DNA from: Prochlorococcus sp. AG-676-M04
Lineage (GTDB): Bacteria; Cyanobacteriota; Cyanobacteriia; PCC-6307; Cyanobiaceae
NCBI GenBank assembly: GCA_003210895.1
Contig: QCUB01000003.1
Location: 1-57,065 of the forward strand
DNA: 57,065 nucleotides
Reading direction: 5' to 3'
The notes under the pieces were generated by a model, which was given only the letters and a program-made list of their open reading frames with translations, was not told the DNA's origin and searched no databases. The translations under genes and the position numbers were made by a program. Every line of letters begins with the position of its first letter. Within the stretch, counting starts at the first letter, position 1. Of this stretch, positions 1 to 6,128 are shown in pieces.

Positions 1-1563
1 CTCAAAAATGAAGAAATTGTGGCTGTAAAAGTTCAGAGACCAGGTTTAAGAGAACAAATCACGCTTGATTTATATATAGTTAGAAATATTGCTTACTGGT
101 TAAAAAATAATATTGGACTTATAAGAAGTGATCTTGTAGCTCTAATTGATGAATTAGGAAAGAGAGTTTTTGAGGAAATGGATTATTTAAACGAAGCTGC
201 AAATGCTGAGAAATTTAGAGATTTGCATATACATAACCCAAAAATTGCTGTACCAAAAATCTATAAAGAAACCACTTCGCGAAGAGTTTTAACAATGGAA
301 TGGATAGATGGTATAAAGCTAACAAATATTGAAGGTGTTAAAAAGATAGGCATTGATCCTGACGAAATGATAGAAATAGGAGTGCAATGTAGTCTAGAAC
401 AATTATTAGAGCATGGTTTTTTTCATGCTGACCCTCATCCAGGAAATTTATTAGCTTTGAAAGATGGAAGATTATGTTATCTAGATTTTGGAATGATGAG
501 TGAAGTTACTAGAAATTCTAGATCAGGCTTAATTCAAGCAGTTGTTCATCTTGTAAATAAGAATTTTGATATAAGAACCTCTATAAAATCATCACTTAAT
601 AATTTAAATAATTATAGAAATGAGATTCCATCAGTAAGTGCTTTAATTACTGAATCAATTAAACAATTAAATAAGGTTGTCGAATTCGATTCTAAAATTA
701 AGGATCTAAATAATAATTTAATAAATATTCAAAATGATGTTGAAAATTTTATTTTTGCTCTTACCGAATATTTAGATCAAGTTGAGCATGAAGATATTAG
801 GTTGGATGATATTCAAAAAAGATTATTTTATCTGCAAAATTTAGAACGAACCTTTTCATTAGAATTACCACAATTGATTTTGAAGAGGGATGAATTAAAA
901 ACATTTATAGATCATAATTTACATGAGGAAGAGATTAAGAAGTTAGATATTCAAATCAATAAAACGCAAGCTACTTTAGACTATCTTTATGGAATACAGT
1001 TTTCTTTAAGGAGAGAAACAGCTAATATGCTTCAAAATTCTGTAATTTCTATTTTGCAAAATTTAGGTTTAGAAAATGCAGATTTTTCTATAGATTTTAC
1101 CAAAGTTGAGCCTTCTCCAGAAGGTAATCAAAGTATAGATTTCTTGTTTTCTGCAAATCCAGATCAAAAGTTAGCTCCACTTTCTAAAATTATTTCTGGT
1201 GGGGAAATGTCAAGATTTTTGTTGGCAATAAAATCTAGTATTTCAAAAAAACCAAATACTTTTTTTCTAGATGAGATTGATAATGGCTTAAGCGGTAAAT
1301 CTTTGCATTCTCTTGTTGATCTAATAAAAGTGATTTCACAAGAAAGGCAGGTTTTGTGTATTACTCATCAGCCTTTTTTAGCTGCAAATGGAAATACTCA
1401 TTTTAAAGTAAAGAAAAATGTTTTTAATGGAATAACCTTTACTTCAATTGCAAAATTAACTACGAAAAAAGAAAGACAAAAAGAGCTAATTGAACTTATA
1501 GGTGGTGGTTTTAGTGAAGCAAATAATTATGCTTCGACACTTATAGAAAGGGCGGCCGCATAA
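1..1563 (+). CDS. ABC1-family kinase / RecN in-frame chimera, 5' end outside window
   Basis: The reading frame is already open at base 1; the first in-window start (GTG at 19) lies inside the kinase lobe at VAVKVQRPG, so the true start is upstream. Numbering from that GTG, residues 1-184 are an ABC1/UbiB atypical kinase: the EEMDYLNEAANAEKF motif (about 52-66), HADPHPGN (136-143) and the LDFG metal-binding motif (155-158). From about residue 185 the protein becomes the C-terminal half of the DNA-repair ATPase RecN: coiled coil (about 185-330), ABC signature ISGGEMSRF (392-400), Walker B FFLDEID (415-421) and switch His450. The RecN N-terminal half with Walker A (about 225 residues in the family) and the ABC1 C-terminal part are absent. 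The join is near base 571. As written, neither enzyme is complete. It may be a genuine deletion between neighbouring genes or an assembly or amplification join. The domain identities are solid; the biological reality of the fusion is not. Confidence 0.85.
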   Translation, partial: LKNEEIVAVKVQRPGLREQITLDLYIVRNIAYWLKNNIGLIRSDLVALIDELGKRVFEEMDYLNEAANAEKFRDLHIHNPKIAVPKIYKETTSRRVLTMEWIDGIKLTNIEGVKKIGIDPDEMIEIGVQCSLEQLLEHGFFHADPHPGNLLALKDGRLCYLDFGMMSEVTRNSRSGLIQAVVHLVNKNFDIRTSIKSSLNNLNNYRNEIPSVSALITESIKQLNKVVEFDSKIKDLNNNLINIQNDVENFIFALTEYLDQVEHEDIRLDDIQKRLFYLQNLERTFSLELPQLILKRDELKTFIDHNLHEEEIKKLDIQINKTQATLDYLYGIQFSLRRETANMLQNSVISILQNLGLENADFSIDFTKVEPSPEGNQSIDFLFSANPDQKLAPLSKIISGGEMSRFLLAIKSSISKKPNTFFLDEIDNGLSGKSLHSLVDLIKVISQERQVLCITHQPFLAANGNTHFKVKKNVFNGITFTSIAKLTTKKERQKELIELIGGGFSEANNYASTLIERAAA

Positions 1564-1617
1564 ATCAAAAAATTTCCACTATAATAAGGATTCTTTAAAT
1601 CAAACTAAGATTTAAAC

Positions 1618-4518
1618 ATGGTAAAGAATAATATTAAGATCAATGACGATAATTCAATAAAGATTAGAGGTGCTCGGCAGCATAATTTAAAAAATATAAA
1701 CCTTAATCTACCAAGAAATAAATTTATTGTTTTTACTGGTGTCAGTGGTAGTGGAAAAAGTTCTTTGGCTTTTGATACTATTTTTGCTGAAGGCCAAAGA
1801 AGATATGTAGAAAGTCTTTCTGCTTATGCAAGACAATTTTTAGGTCAAGTTGATAAGCCAGATGTAGATAATATTGAAGGCTTGTCGCCTGCTATCTCTA
1901 TAGATCAAAAATCAACAAGTCATAATCCTCGATCAACTGTTGGAACAGTTACTGAGATACAAGATTATTTAAGATTATTATTCGGACGAGCTGGAGAACC
2001 TCATTGTCATCATTGTGGTCTTCCAATTGCTCCTCAAACAATTGATGAAATGGTTGATCAAATAATTTTGCTTCCTGAGGGAACGAGATATCAATTACTT
2101 GCACCTGTTGTTAGAGGTAAAAAAGGAACTCATGCAAAATTACTCAGTGGATTAGCCGCGGAAGGTTTTGCAAGAGTCAGAATTAATGGTGAAGTTAGAG
2201 AACTTGCAGATAGTATTGAACTAGATAAAAATCATATTCACAATATTGAGGTTGTAGTTGACCGATTAATTGCCAGAGAGGGTATTCAAGAAAGATTGAA
2301 TGACTCTTTACAAACAAGTCTCAAAAGAGGAGATGGGCTTTCAATTGTAGAAGTTGTTCCTAAGAAAGGTGAAAACTTACCTCCAAATTTAGATAAAGAA
2401 AAGTTATATTCAGAGAATTATGCTTGTCCAATTCATGGATCTATAGTTGAAGAATTATCTCCCAGATTATTTTCTTTTAATAGTCCATATGGTGCCTGTC
2501 CTGATTGTCATGGTATAGGTTACTTAAAAAAATTTACTGCAGATAGAGTAATTCCTGATACTTCTTTACCTGTTTATGCTGCTATAGCTCCTTGGAGTGA
2601 AAAAGATAATACTTATTATTTTTCTTTACTCTATTCAGTTGGACAAGCTTATGGCTTTGAATTAAAAACTCCATGGAAAGATCTGAGTGATTTACAAAAG
2701 AATGTTTTACTTTCAGGGTCCGATAAGCCAATTCTAATTCAAGCCGATAGTCGTTTTAAAACTTCTAGTGGCTTTGAAAGGCCTTTTGAAGGAATATTGC
2801 CAATTCTAGAAAGGCAATTAAGTGAATCTAATGGAGAATCAGTGAAACAAAAGCTAGAAAAATATTTAGAATTAGTTCCTTGCAAAACATGTTCTGGAAA
2901 AAGATTAAAACCAGAAGCTCTTGCCGTTAAGCTTGGACCCTACAATATTACTGATTTAACTTCTATCAGTGTTTCGGAAACTTTATTTCATATTGAGAAA
3001 ATAATGGGATTAAATAAAAATATAAAAGAAAACATTTCTTTATCTGAGAAACAAAAACAAATTGGCGAATTAGTTTTAAAAGAAATTAGATTGCGTTTAA
3101 AATTCCTTATCAATGTTGGTTTGGATTATTTAACTTTAGATAGGCCAGCAATGACTCTATCAGGAGGAGAAGCTCAGCGTATTAGACTAGCAACCCAAAT
3201 AGGAGCGGGTTTAACTGGTGTTTTATATGTATTGGATGAACCTAGTATTGGTTTACATCAAAGAGATAATGATAGATTGCTCGAAACATTAAAAAATCTC
3301 AGAGACTTAGGAAACACTTTAGTTGTTGTTGAACATGATGAAGATACTATGAAATCTGCTGATTACATAGTTGATATAGGACCAGGTGCAGGAGTTTATG
3401 GAGGGGAGATTATTGCAAAAGGTACATTTGACGACGTTGTAAATTCAGAAAAGTCCCTTACTGGTGCATATCTTAGTGGAAAGAAGTCCATTCCTACTCC
3501 TAAAGAGCGAAGATCTTCAGTAAAGAAAAGTTTAATTTTAAACAATTGTATAAAGAATAATTTAAAAGATATATCTGTTGAATTTCCTTTAGGGAGATTA
3601 GTTTCTGTAACCGGAGTTAGTGGTAGTGGAAAAAGTACATTGGTTAATGAATTATTACATCCTGCACTTTGTCATTCCCTTGGGTTAAAAGTTCCTTTCC
3701 CAAAAGGGGTTAAAGAGTTAAAAGGTATAAAAGCTATTGATAAGGTGATTGTAATTGATCAATCTCCTATTGGAAGAACACCTCGATCAAATCCTGCTAC
3801 CTATACTGGTGCTTTTGACCCAATTAGGCAGTTATTTACTGCGACAGTGGAAGCTAAAGCTAGAGGTTATCAAGCCGGGCAATTTAGTTTTAATGTAAAA
3901 GGAGGTAGATGTGAAGCTTGTAGAGGGCAAGGAGTAAATGTTATTGAAATGAATTTCTTACCTGATGTTTATGTTCAATGTGATGTATGTAAGGGTGCTC
4001 GTTTTAATAGAGAAACGCTTCAAGTGAAATACAAAGGTTTTAATATCTCAGATGTTTTAGAAATGACTGTTGAGCAGGCTGCTGAAACTTTTTCCGCTAT
4101 TCCTCAAGCGGCTGATAGATTATCTACATTAGTTGATGTAGGGCTTGGTTACGTCAAACTAGGACAGCCAGCTCCAACATTATCTGGAGGAGAGGCACAA
4201 AGAGTAAAATTAGCAACTGAATTATCAAAAAGAGCTACTGGAAAAACTTTGTATTTGATTGATGAGCCAACAACAGGGTTAAGTTTTTATGATGTTCATA
4301 AATTAATGGATGTTATTCAACGCTTAGTAGATAAAGGAAATTCAGTAGTTGTAATTGAACATAATTTAGATGTTATAAGATGTTCAGACTGGATAATTGA
4401 TCTTGGACCTGATGGAGGGGATAAAGGTGGGAAGATTATAGTAGAGGGTACACCTGAAGATGTTGCGAACCATTCAACAAGTTATACAGCTAAATATTTA
4501 AAAGAAGCTCTCAATTGA
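1618..4518 (+). CDS. uvrA: UvrA, excinuclease ABC subunit A
   Basis: UvrA is the damage-recognition ATPase of nucleotide excision repair; it dimerises and loads UvrB. The 966-residue length is normal. Two ABC ATPase modules are visible. The first has Walker A GVSGSGKSS (about 41-49) and signature TLSGGEAQRIRLA (about 514-526). The second has GVSGSGKST (about 671-679) and TLSGGEAQRVKLA. Zinc-binding cysteines appear as CHHCGLP, CPDCHGIGY, CKTCSGKR and CEACRGQG/CDVCKG. ATG start at 1618, 54 bases after the RecN-like stop, so it follows a (broken) repair gene on the same strand. Confidence 0.98.
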   Translation: MVKNNIKINDDNSIKIRGARQHNLKNINLNLPRNKFIVFTGVSGSGKSSLAFDTIFAEGQRRYVESLSAYARQFLGQVDKPDVDNIEGLSPAISIDQKSTSHNPRSTVGTVTEIQDYLRLLFGRAGEPHCHHCGLPIAPQTIDEMVDQIILLPEGTRYQLLAPVVRGKKGTHAKLLSGLAAEGFARVRINGEVRELADSIELDKNHIHNIEVVVDRLIAREGIQERLNDSLQTSLKRGDGLSIVEVVPKKGENLPPNLDKEKLYSENYACPIHGSIVEELSPRLFSFNSPYGACPDCHGIGYLKKFTADRVIPDTSLPVYAAIAPWSEKDNTYYFSLLYSVGQAYGFELKTPWKDLSDLQKNVLLSGSDKPILIQADSRFKTSSGFERPFEGILPILERQLSESNGESVKQKLEKYLELVPCKTCSGKRLKPEALAVKLGPYNITDLTSISVSETLFHIEKIMGLNKNIKENISLSEKQKQIGELVLKEIRLRLKFLINVGLDYLTLDRPAMTLSGGEAQRIRLATQIGAGLTGVLYVLDEPSIGLHQRDNDRLLETLKNLRDLGNTLVVVEHDEDTMKSADYIVDIGPGAGVYGGEIIAKGTFDDVVNSEKSLTGAYLSGKKSIPTPKERRSSVKKSLILNNCIKNNLKDISVEFPLGRLVSVTGVSGSGKSTLVNELLHPALCHSLGLKVPFPKGVKELKGIKAIDKVIVIDQSPIGRTPRSNPATYTGAFDPIRQLFTATVEAKARGYQAGQFSFNVKGGRCEACRGQGVNVIEMNFLPDVYVQCDVCKGARFNRETLQVKYKGFNISDVLEMTVEQAAETFSAIPQAADRLSTLVDVGLGYVKLGQPAPTLSGGEAQRVKLATELSKRATGKTLYLIDEPTTGLSFYDVHKLMDVIQRLVDKGNSVVVIEHNLDVIRCSDWIIDLGPDGGDKGGKIIVEGTPEDVANHSTSYTAKYLKEALN

Positions 4519-4580
4519 GCTCTTGACGAGTTATATTTCTTCGCATTGTTAATATTATTATTTGTAAATTGTTATTTTAT

Positions 4581-4632
4581 AAAGTTATTAAAAAGTAATC
4601 ATACCAATACTTATGGTGGTTATAACTTTTTT
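4581..4632 (+). terminator. possible intrinsic terminator downstream of uvrA
   Basis: AAAGTTAT at 4581-4588 is perfectly complementary to ATAACTTT at 4622-4629. An inner ACCA/TGGT pair closes a 7-base loop, and six T follow at 4627-4632. The stem is AT-rich and interrupted by internal loops, so it is weak; no better hairpin was seen in this 197-base spacer before the next gene. Confidence 0.3.
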
Positions 4633-4715
4633 AAAATAAAAAATCATAATGCTTTCTTAATCTTTTAAAAGTTAAATGTATCTTATTAGTTATAAGGTAT
4701 TTTTATAAGTGCCAA

Positions 4716-6128
4716 ATGAGTTTGAAATTTTTACATTTACATTTGCATGGTTTAATACGTTCTAATAATCTTGAATTGGGTAGAGATTCAGATACTGGAG
4801 GTCAAACGCAATATGTTTTGGAATTGGTAAAAAGCTTAGCTAATACTTTGGAGGTTGAGCAAGTTGATTTAGTTACTCGTCTTATAAACGATTGTAAAAT
4901 TGATAGTTCTTATTCAAAAGAGCAAGAATTTATTGAACCTGGAGCACAAATTTTAAGATTTCAATTTGGACCTAATAAGTATTTAAGAAAAGAATTAATT
5001 TGGCCTTATTTAGACCAATTAACTAACAATCTGATTCAGTATTATCAAAAACATGAAAATAAGCCAAGCTATATTCATGCTCATTATGCAGATGCTGGTT
5101 ATGTGGGAGTTAGGTTAAGCCAAGCTTTAAAAGTACCTTTTATTTTTACAGGGCATTCTTTAGGACGAGAGAAAAAAAGAAAACTACTTGAGGCTGGTTT
5201 AAAAATTAATCAAATTGAAAAGCTTTACTGTATTAACAAAAGAATTAATGCAGAAGAAGAGGCTTTAAAATCTGCAGATATCATTGTGACAAGTACTAAA
5301 CAAGAATCTGTTTATCAATATTCTCAATATCATTCTTTTTTACCTGAAAAATCAAAAGTTATTGCTCCGGGAGTTGATCATACTAAATTTCATCATATTC
5401 ATTCAACAACTGAGACCTCTGAAATTGACAATATGATGCTTCCTTTTTTGAAGGACTTAAGGAAACCTCCTATTTTGGCTATTTCTAGAGCAGTAAGAAG
5501 AAAAAATATTCCTTCTTTAGTTGAAGCTTATGGACGATCAGAAAAATTAAAAAGAAAAACTAATTTAATTTTAGTTTTAGGTTGTAGAGACAACACATCT
5601 AAACTTGACTCTCAACAAAGAGATGTTTTTCAAAAGATTTTTGAAATGATAGATAAATATAATTTATATGGAAAAGTAGCTTATCCAAAAAAACATTCTC
5701 CAGCAAATATTCCTTCTTTATATAGATGGGCAGCTAGTAGGGGAGGAATTTTTGTCAATCCTGCCTTAACAGAACCTTTTGGCTTAACATTACTTGAAGC
5801 TTCTTCATGCGGTTTACCGATTATTGCTACAGATGATGGAGGTCCTAAGGAAATTCATTCGAAATGTCAAAATGGCTTATTAGTGGATGTAACTGATACT
5901 AATAAGTTGAAAATTGCTCTTGAAAAAGGCATTTCAAATAGTTCTCAATGGAAGTTATGGAGTAGAAATGGAATTGAAGGAGTTCATAGACATTTTAGTT
6001 GGAATACTCATGTCAGAAATTATTTATCAATCTTAAAAAGCCACTATCAAAAATCTACTATAGTTTCATCATCTGGAATCAAAGAAAGTTGTTTGAATGG
6101 TAGTTCCTCACTTATAAAACCCCATTGA
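4716..6128 (+). CDS. sps: sucrose-phosphate synthase, glycosyltransferase domain only
   Basis: Predicted GT4 glycosyltransferase making sucrose-6-phosphate from UDP-glucose (or ADP-glucose) and fructose-6-phosphate, relevant to compatible-solute supply. The N-terminal GRDSDTGGQTQYVLEL (about 22-37) is the sucrose synthase/SPS signature. The GHSLGREKKRKLL block follows, and the donor-site EPFGLTLLEASSCGLP motif is at about 350-365. At 470 residues it is much shorter than cyanobacterial SPS proteins of about 700 residues, which carry a C-terminal HAD (SPP-like) domain; that domain is missing. Residues 444-470 are encoded opposite the 3' end of the convergent gene at 6047-6307. ATG start; no clear ribosome-binding site. 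A related sucrose-type glycosyltransferase function cannot be excluded. Confidence 0.85.
   Translation: MSLKFLHLHLHGLIRSNNLELGRDSDTGGQTQYVLELVKSLANTLEVEQVDLVTRLINDCKIDSSYSKEQEFIEPGAQILRFQFGPNKYLRKELIWPYLDQLTNNLIQYYQKHENKPSYIHAHYADAGYVGVRLSQALKVPFIFTGHSLGREKKRKLLEAGLKINQIEKLYCINKRINAEEEALKSADIIVTSTKQESVYQYSQYHSFLPEKSKVIAPGVDHTKFHHIHSTTETSEIDNMMLPFLKDLRKPPILAISRAVRRKNIPSLVEAYGRSEKLKRKTNLILVLGCRDNTSKLDSQQRDVFQKIFEMIDKYNLYGKVAYPKKHSPANIPSLYRWAASRGGIFVNPALTEPFGLTLLEASSCGLPIIATDDGGPKEIHSKCQNGLLVDVTDTNKLKIALEKGISNSSQWKLWSRNGIEGVHRHFSWNTHVRNYLSILKSHYQKSTIVSSSGIKESCLNGSSSLIKPH

Follow-up and report, generated by a model that had tools for sequence, protein, structure and literature searches.

A kinase-recN reading frame at the end of a Prochlorococcus contig is probably an inverted amplification chimera

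The window, a stretch of 57,065 nucleotides from Prochlorococcus sp. AG-676-M04, opens with one reading frame that reads first as an ABC1 kinase and then as the C-terminal half of RecN, raising the question of whether the genome encodes a fusion protein, has suffered a rearrangement that broke both genes, or has been joined here in the laboratory. A reading made from the letters alone had offered a single deletion, a single-cell amplification join, and a loss of RecN or birth of a new kinase-coupled fragment as explanations. Our comparison with related genomes leads us to conclude, with a probability of roughly 93%, that the join is an inverted chimera from multiple displacement amplification (MDA), and not a gene. 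The features concerned are collected in Table 1.

Table 1. Features at the start of the window (positions in the window, with strand and basis of assignment).
Feature	Position	Strand	Basis or remark
Kinase-recN joined frame	1..1563	+	520 codons; 5' end open (ORF list)
ABC1/UbiB-like atypical kinase gene fragment	1..571	+	Pfam ABC1; DNA identity to relatives
Junction microhomology (inferred), AATTTTGATA, 10 bases	562..571	+	Inverted repeat in both genes of close relatives
recN 3' half (RecN C-terminal half, without Walker A)	562..1563	+	TIGR00634; native place before uvrA
uvrA, intact, native neighbour of recN	1618..4518	+	ORF; tblastn against relatives

Both parts of the joined frame are readily recognized. 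Pfam ABC1 (PF03109) covers residues 1-189 (E 5.1e-59; profile positions 51-237 of 244) with 199.8 bits, well past its gathering score of 22.9, and NCBIfam recN (TIGR00634) covers residues 188-514 (profile positions 224-560 of 563, E 6e-60) with about 204 bits (203.7), short of the curated whole-protein cut-off of 407.85 bits. The translation harbors HADPHPGN and LDFG on the kinase side, followed by ISGGEMSRF, FFLDEID and ITHQ, which we take to be the ABC signature, the Walker B motif and the switch histidine of RecN. Profiles and motifs thus uphold the description of a single frame running from an ABC1 kinase into the RecN C-terminal half, and the absence of the Walker A half of RecN was likewise confirmed: the pattern GxxxxGK[S/T] has no match in the whole translation of the joined frame, while the intact RecN of a relative (G010) carries GDSGSGKS. 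Compared with RecN proper, the window retains the C-terminal half in its native place before uvrA, whereas the N-terminal half with Walker A is absent from the contig. The kinase fragment, corresponding to about codons 162-351 of the orthologous open reading frame of G010 and 88-90% identical in DNA to seven relatives in a base-by-base alignment, retains the catalytic core and is the orthologue of the divergent neighbor of recN in Prochlorococcus. Unlike that orthologue, however, it is inverted relative to recN and uvrA, its C-terminal part is replaced by recN, and its N-terminal part lies past the end of the contig. The start of the contig cuts the fragment at base 1, and the joined frame is open at its 5' end for the same reason.

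Window base 1 is indeed the first base of contig C3 (the window is G000:C3:1-57065), in an assembly of 70 contigs and 1.27 Mb with 71.9% completeness and 0.13% contamination. In a comparison of window positions 1-2093 and 4093-57065 with the complete relative G015, positions 4093-57065 align in one piece with 91.5% identity and positions 559-2093 are likewise colinear. Positions 1-571 alone flip, matching G015 at 1654750-1655320 on the plus strand, whereas recN runs from 1653534 downwards on the minus strand. The counterpart of the kinase fragment thus sits in reverse direction, 1.2 kb beyond the recN stretch.

The arrangement in relatives was established with a protein query of 520 residues against 99 genomes, 60 of them of the same genus, in which rows for recN and for the orthologous kinase (at least 76% identity) were counted by hand. 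The two are separate genes in these relatives. Among the matches listed, at least 46 same-genus genomes have a recN row and at least 46 an orthologous kinase row, and in all 43 that have both the two genes are divergent on one contig, with matched stretches on opposite strands and about 1.2 kb between them; six further genomes with only one row among the matches listed (recN in G005, G012 and G053, the kinase in G037, G044 and G049) are silent on orientation. A second set, 80 loci kept of 533 matching loci in the GTDB collection and chosen by their match to the recN part of the query, shows kinase on the minus strand and recN and uvrA on the plus strand in 80/80, with uvrA just downstream of recN in every case (tblastn of the window's UvrA protein). 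A contig end falls inside the kinase in two of these loci (L065, L104) and inside uvrA in several, and uvrA is damaged in L087. The two sets share genomes and are not independent. Neither the matches listed for the 99 genomes nor the 80 loci contain another kinase-recN join. The suggestion in the sequence-only reading that the two genes can be neighbors is borne out, and because they point apart in relatives, joining them in one direction takes an inversion.

The point of the join can be placed closely. In a base-by-base alignment with seven close relatives, similarity to the kinase stops at 571 and similarity to recN starts at 558-562, in agreement with the position near base 571 proposed earlier. 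The word AATTTTGATA at this position is present exactly in both genes in five of the seven relatives, and the remaining two differ by one base, G008 in the kinase and G022 in recN. Among the 76 of the 80 loci that are alignable on both sides (all except L094, L099, L119 and L133), 10 carry the word exactly in the kinase gene and in recN, and all 10 belong to the 20 loci most similar to this genome; the two sites lie 1,776-1,783 bp (1.78 kb) apart in 76/76. Junctions drawn at random, one site in each gene of L058, shared ten or more bases at a frequency of 5.5e-5 in 200,000 draws. The microhomology at the window's own join is presumed from the relatives, as this genome's native copies of the two sites are absent from the assembly. 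A hairpin was considered as a cause of the junction and rejected, positions 522-621 folding no better than shuffled sequences (z 0.16). A 39-base pattern beginning at 562 matched only the window's own genome in a genus search of 266 genomes; because it lies almost wholly inside recN it is uninformative on the junction and was not counted as evidence.

One close relative has a contig end at the same place. In G012 (L049, end of G012:C16) the contig stops within recN at the counterpart of window position 569, inside the junction word, and a search of G012 recovered neither the recN N-terminal half nor the orthologous kinase. This may be a coincidence, or else a shared breakage point.

A segment in inverted orientation, a distance of less than 10 kb between the two sites and a short complementary word at the junction are the marks by which MDA chimeras are recognized, and all three are found at this locus, the word by comparison with relatives. 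Excerpts of the report by Lasken and Stockwell (2007; PMC1855051), who sequenced chimeras from the amplification of one E. coli cell, give 406 of 475 chimeras as inverted. Of these 406, 337 linked sites separated by less than 10 kb, and 93.5% of the inverted chimeras under 10 kb showed complementarity at the junction (range 2-21 bases), so that inversion over less than 10 kb with short microhomology is the most frequent type of MDA chimera in that material. The window's join resembles these in its inversion, its span and its 10-base word within the reported range, but it differs in lying at the end of an assembled contig where theirs were seen in single reads, and in that the amplification history is here presumed. 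In a second data set, as excerpted (PMC4595205), overlaps are mostly 5-8 bases and distances extend from 0 to more than 5,000, peaking at 250-300; the span of 1.78 kb is within that range but above the peak, and the 10-base overlap exceeds the usual length.

Fragmentation of the assembly and the names of its nearest relatives suggest that the genome was amplified from one cell. The closest public relatives are mostly single-cell genomes by name, with at least 4 MIT isolates among the 80 loci, and several of those with single-cell names come from plates listed in PMC6122165, which describes a set of Prochlorococcus single cells whose DNA was amplified by MDA or WGA-X, in a workflow with 1.5 misassemblies per 100 kb in benchmarks. 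By our own arithmetic, about 19 misassemblies would be expected in 1.27 Mb at that rate, if the same pipeline was used.

These observations are consistent with the following course of events, in which the single-cell origin, the low coverage and the strand switching are presumed. In the native state the ABC1 kinase gene and recN would stand head-to-head, with uvrA after recN. Phi29 polymerase copying leftwards through recN would have had its growing 3' end displaced within AATTTTGATA, and this end would then have paired with the complementary word in the kinase gene, 1.78 kb away on a displaced strand. Backward extension from there would join the 5' part of the kinase gene to the 3' half of recN, and the assembler, following the chimeric molecule to where coverage was low, would have come to a halt after another 571 bases. 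De Bruijn assemblers are not known to link reads through an overlap of 10 bases, and the chimera therefore probably existed already in the amplified molecule. The open frame would be a one-in-three accident, since the flip leaves the genes pointing one way and AATTTTGATA is translated in one and the same frame (Asn-Phe-Asp) in kinase and recN; the chance of one in three is our estimate for passage in frame once both genes read one way. Of the explanations first offered, the amplification join is the one best supported, by its inverted direction, its 1.78 kb span, the 10-base microhomology and its position at a contig end; the deletion is contradicted and the loss of RecN or new fragment unsupported, as set out below.

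Three observations count against an artefact: the frame stays open across the join, the span and overlap are above those typical in the excerpted PMC4595205 data, and no second clean inverted join was found when 82 contig ends (from 41 of the 70 contigs) were compared with 805 kb of G015. This survey covered contig ends and, of contig interiors, the window alone. Matches were obtained for 40 of the 82 ends, of which 31 were colinear (at least 2,700 of 3,000 bases), 7 partial and 2 on both strands. The start of C3 was the only cleanly inverted end among the 40; the start of C2 gave five short matches on both strands in two distant regions of G015. One clean inverted join in 32 interpretable ends gives no strong support for or against an artefact.

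A real chromosomal inversion in the cell is the alternative that survives best, and we consider it very unlikely. Recombination at the 10-base inverted repeats would have flipped 1.78 kb carrying the 5' parts of both genes, yielding a junction of geometry identical to that of the amplification chimera, and the inverted repeat it needs is present in close relatives. It would, however, inactivate both genes and produce two reciprocal fusions, the kinase N-terminal part with the RecN C-terminal half and the RecN N-terminal half with the kinase C-terminal part, and neither part of the second was found in the assembly, which is just 72% complete. The inversion is seen in none of the 43 genomes among the matches listed and none of the 80 loci, the join lies near a contig end, and 10 bases is a short repeat for homologous recombination to act on. 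As a control, the recN-half query was run on five other genomes and recovered its target in 4 (G008, G015, G022 and G041, though not G012). The predicted reciprocal fusion could be in the 28% of the genome that the assembly lacks. Slightly less probable still is the suggestion that a genuine 1.78-kb inversion swaps the halves, turning off RecN-dependent repair (perhaps reversibly) in some cells of a Prochlorococcus population.

The possibility of an intact second copy in the assembly was rejected. In the 72%-complete assembly the recN N-terminal half gave no match, and the kinase C-terminal part gave nothing above a 26% paralogue match. The remaining ABC1 matches are paralogues, among them one on C48 with 35% identity to the G010 orthologue. 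Another contig, C17, also ends inside an ABC1 gene (G000:C17:26627-27007, L054), again a paralogue, with 40% identity to the G010 orthologue.

If the kinase-RecN fusion were a fixed, selected protein with its own function, this would account for the open frame and for the low pN relative to pS in both halves, but we regard it as highly improbable. Constraint was measured for the window genome against six relatives in the kinase part and five in recN. Omega for the kinase is 0.05-0.06 between the window genome and its relatives and 0-0.06 among the relatives; for recN it is 0.18-0.23 and, slightly lower, 0.12-0.19. Neither half shows decay, and because their omega values are about those between intact orthologues, if slightly higher for recN, both must have belonged to intact genes up to the very recent past, which is what a recent or artificial join would lead one to expect. 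Moreover, the RecN half lacks Walker A, the fusion is seen neither in the other genomes among the matches listed nor in the 80 loci, and the paper collection searched contains none that mentions UbiB, RecN and a fusion protein together. The earlier proposal that RecN is lost here, or that a new kinase-coupled fragment has arisen, does not hold up either: the missing halves could lie outside the assembly, which is 72% complete, and the join is seen in no other genome among the matches listed and in none of the 80 loci. A deletion between tandem genes, suggested by the true proximity of kinase and recN, deserves practically no credence, because a deletion keeps orientation and the genes are head-to-head in the 43 genomes among the matches listed and in the 80 loci. 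A phage source was also rejected, a distant-mode DNA search with all 1,563 bases finding nothing among 50,697 phage records.

Being most likely an amplification chimera, the joined frame most likely has no biological significance, and instead illustrates neatly that amplification can produce, at a contig end, an inverted chimera that passes for an in-frame "fusion protein" with correct motifs on either side. A cheap check exposes it, namely whether both genes point one way in relatives, and in assemblies from amplified single cells, any apparent fusion lying a few hundred bases or less from a contig end should undergo this orientation check before it is reported.

Two observations were made on recN and uvrA elsewhere in the genus. 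With at most five candidates scored per genome, 7 of 87 near-complete genus genomes gave no recN match at E <= 1e-20, and some genomes, such as G113, G115 and G006, gave two or three, one of those in G006 containing a TGA; some Prochlorococcus lineages may have lost recN or carry it in broken form, or these may be sequencing errors. In the damaged uvrA of L087 (QCRH01000008.1, Prochlorococcus sp. AG-459-O09, about 4010-5088), approximately the first 30 codons run in frame into the second ABC half with about 580 codons missing, either a real internal deletion between the duplicated halves or a direct chimera.
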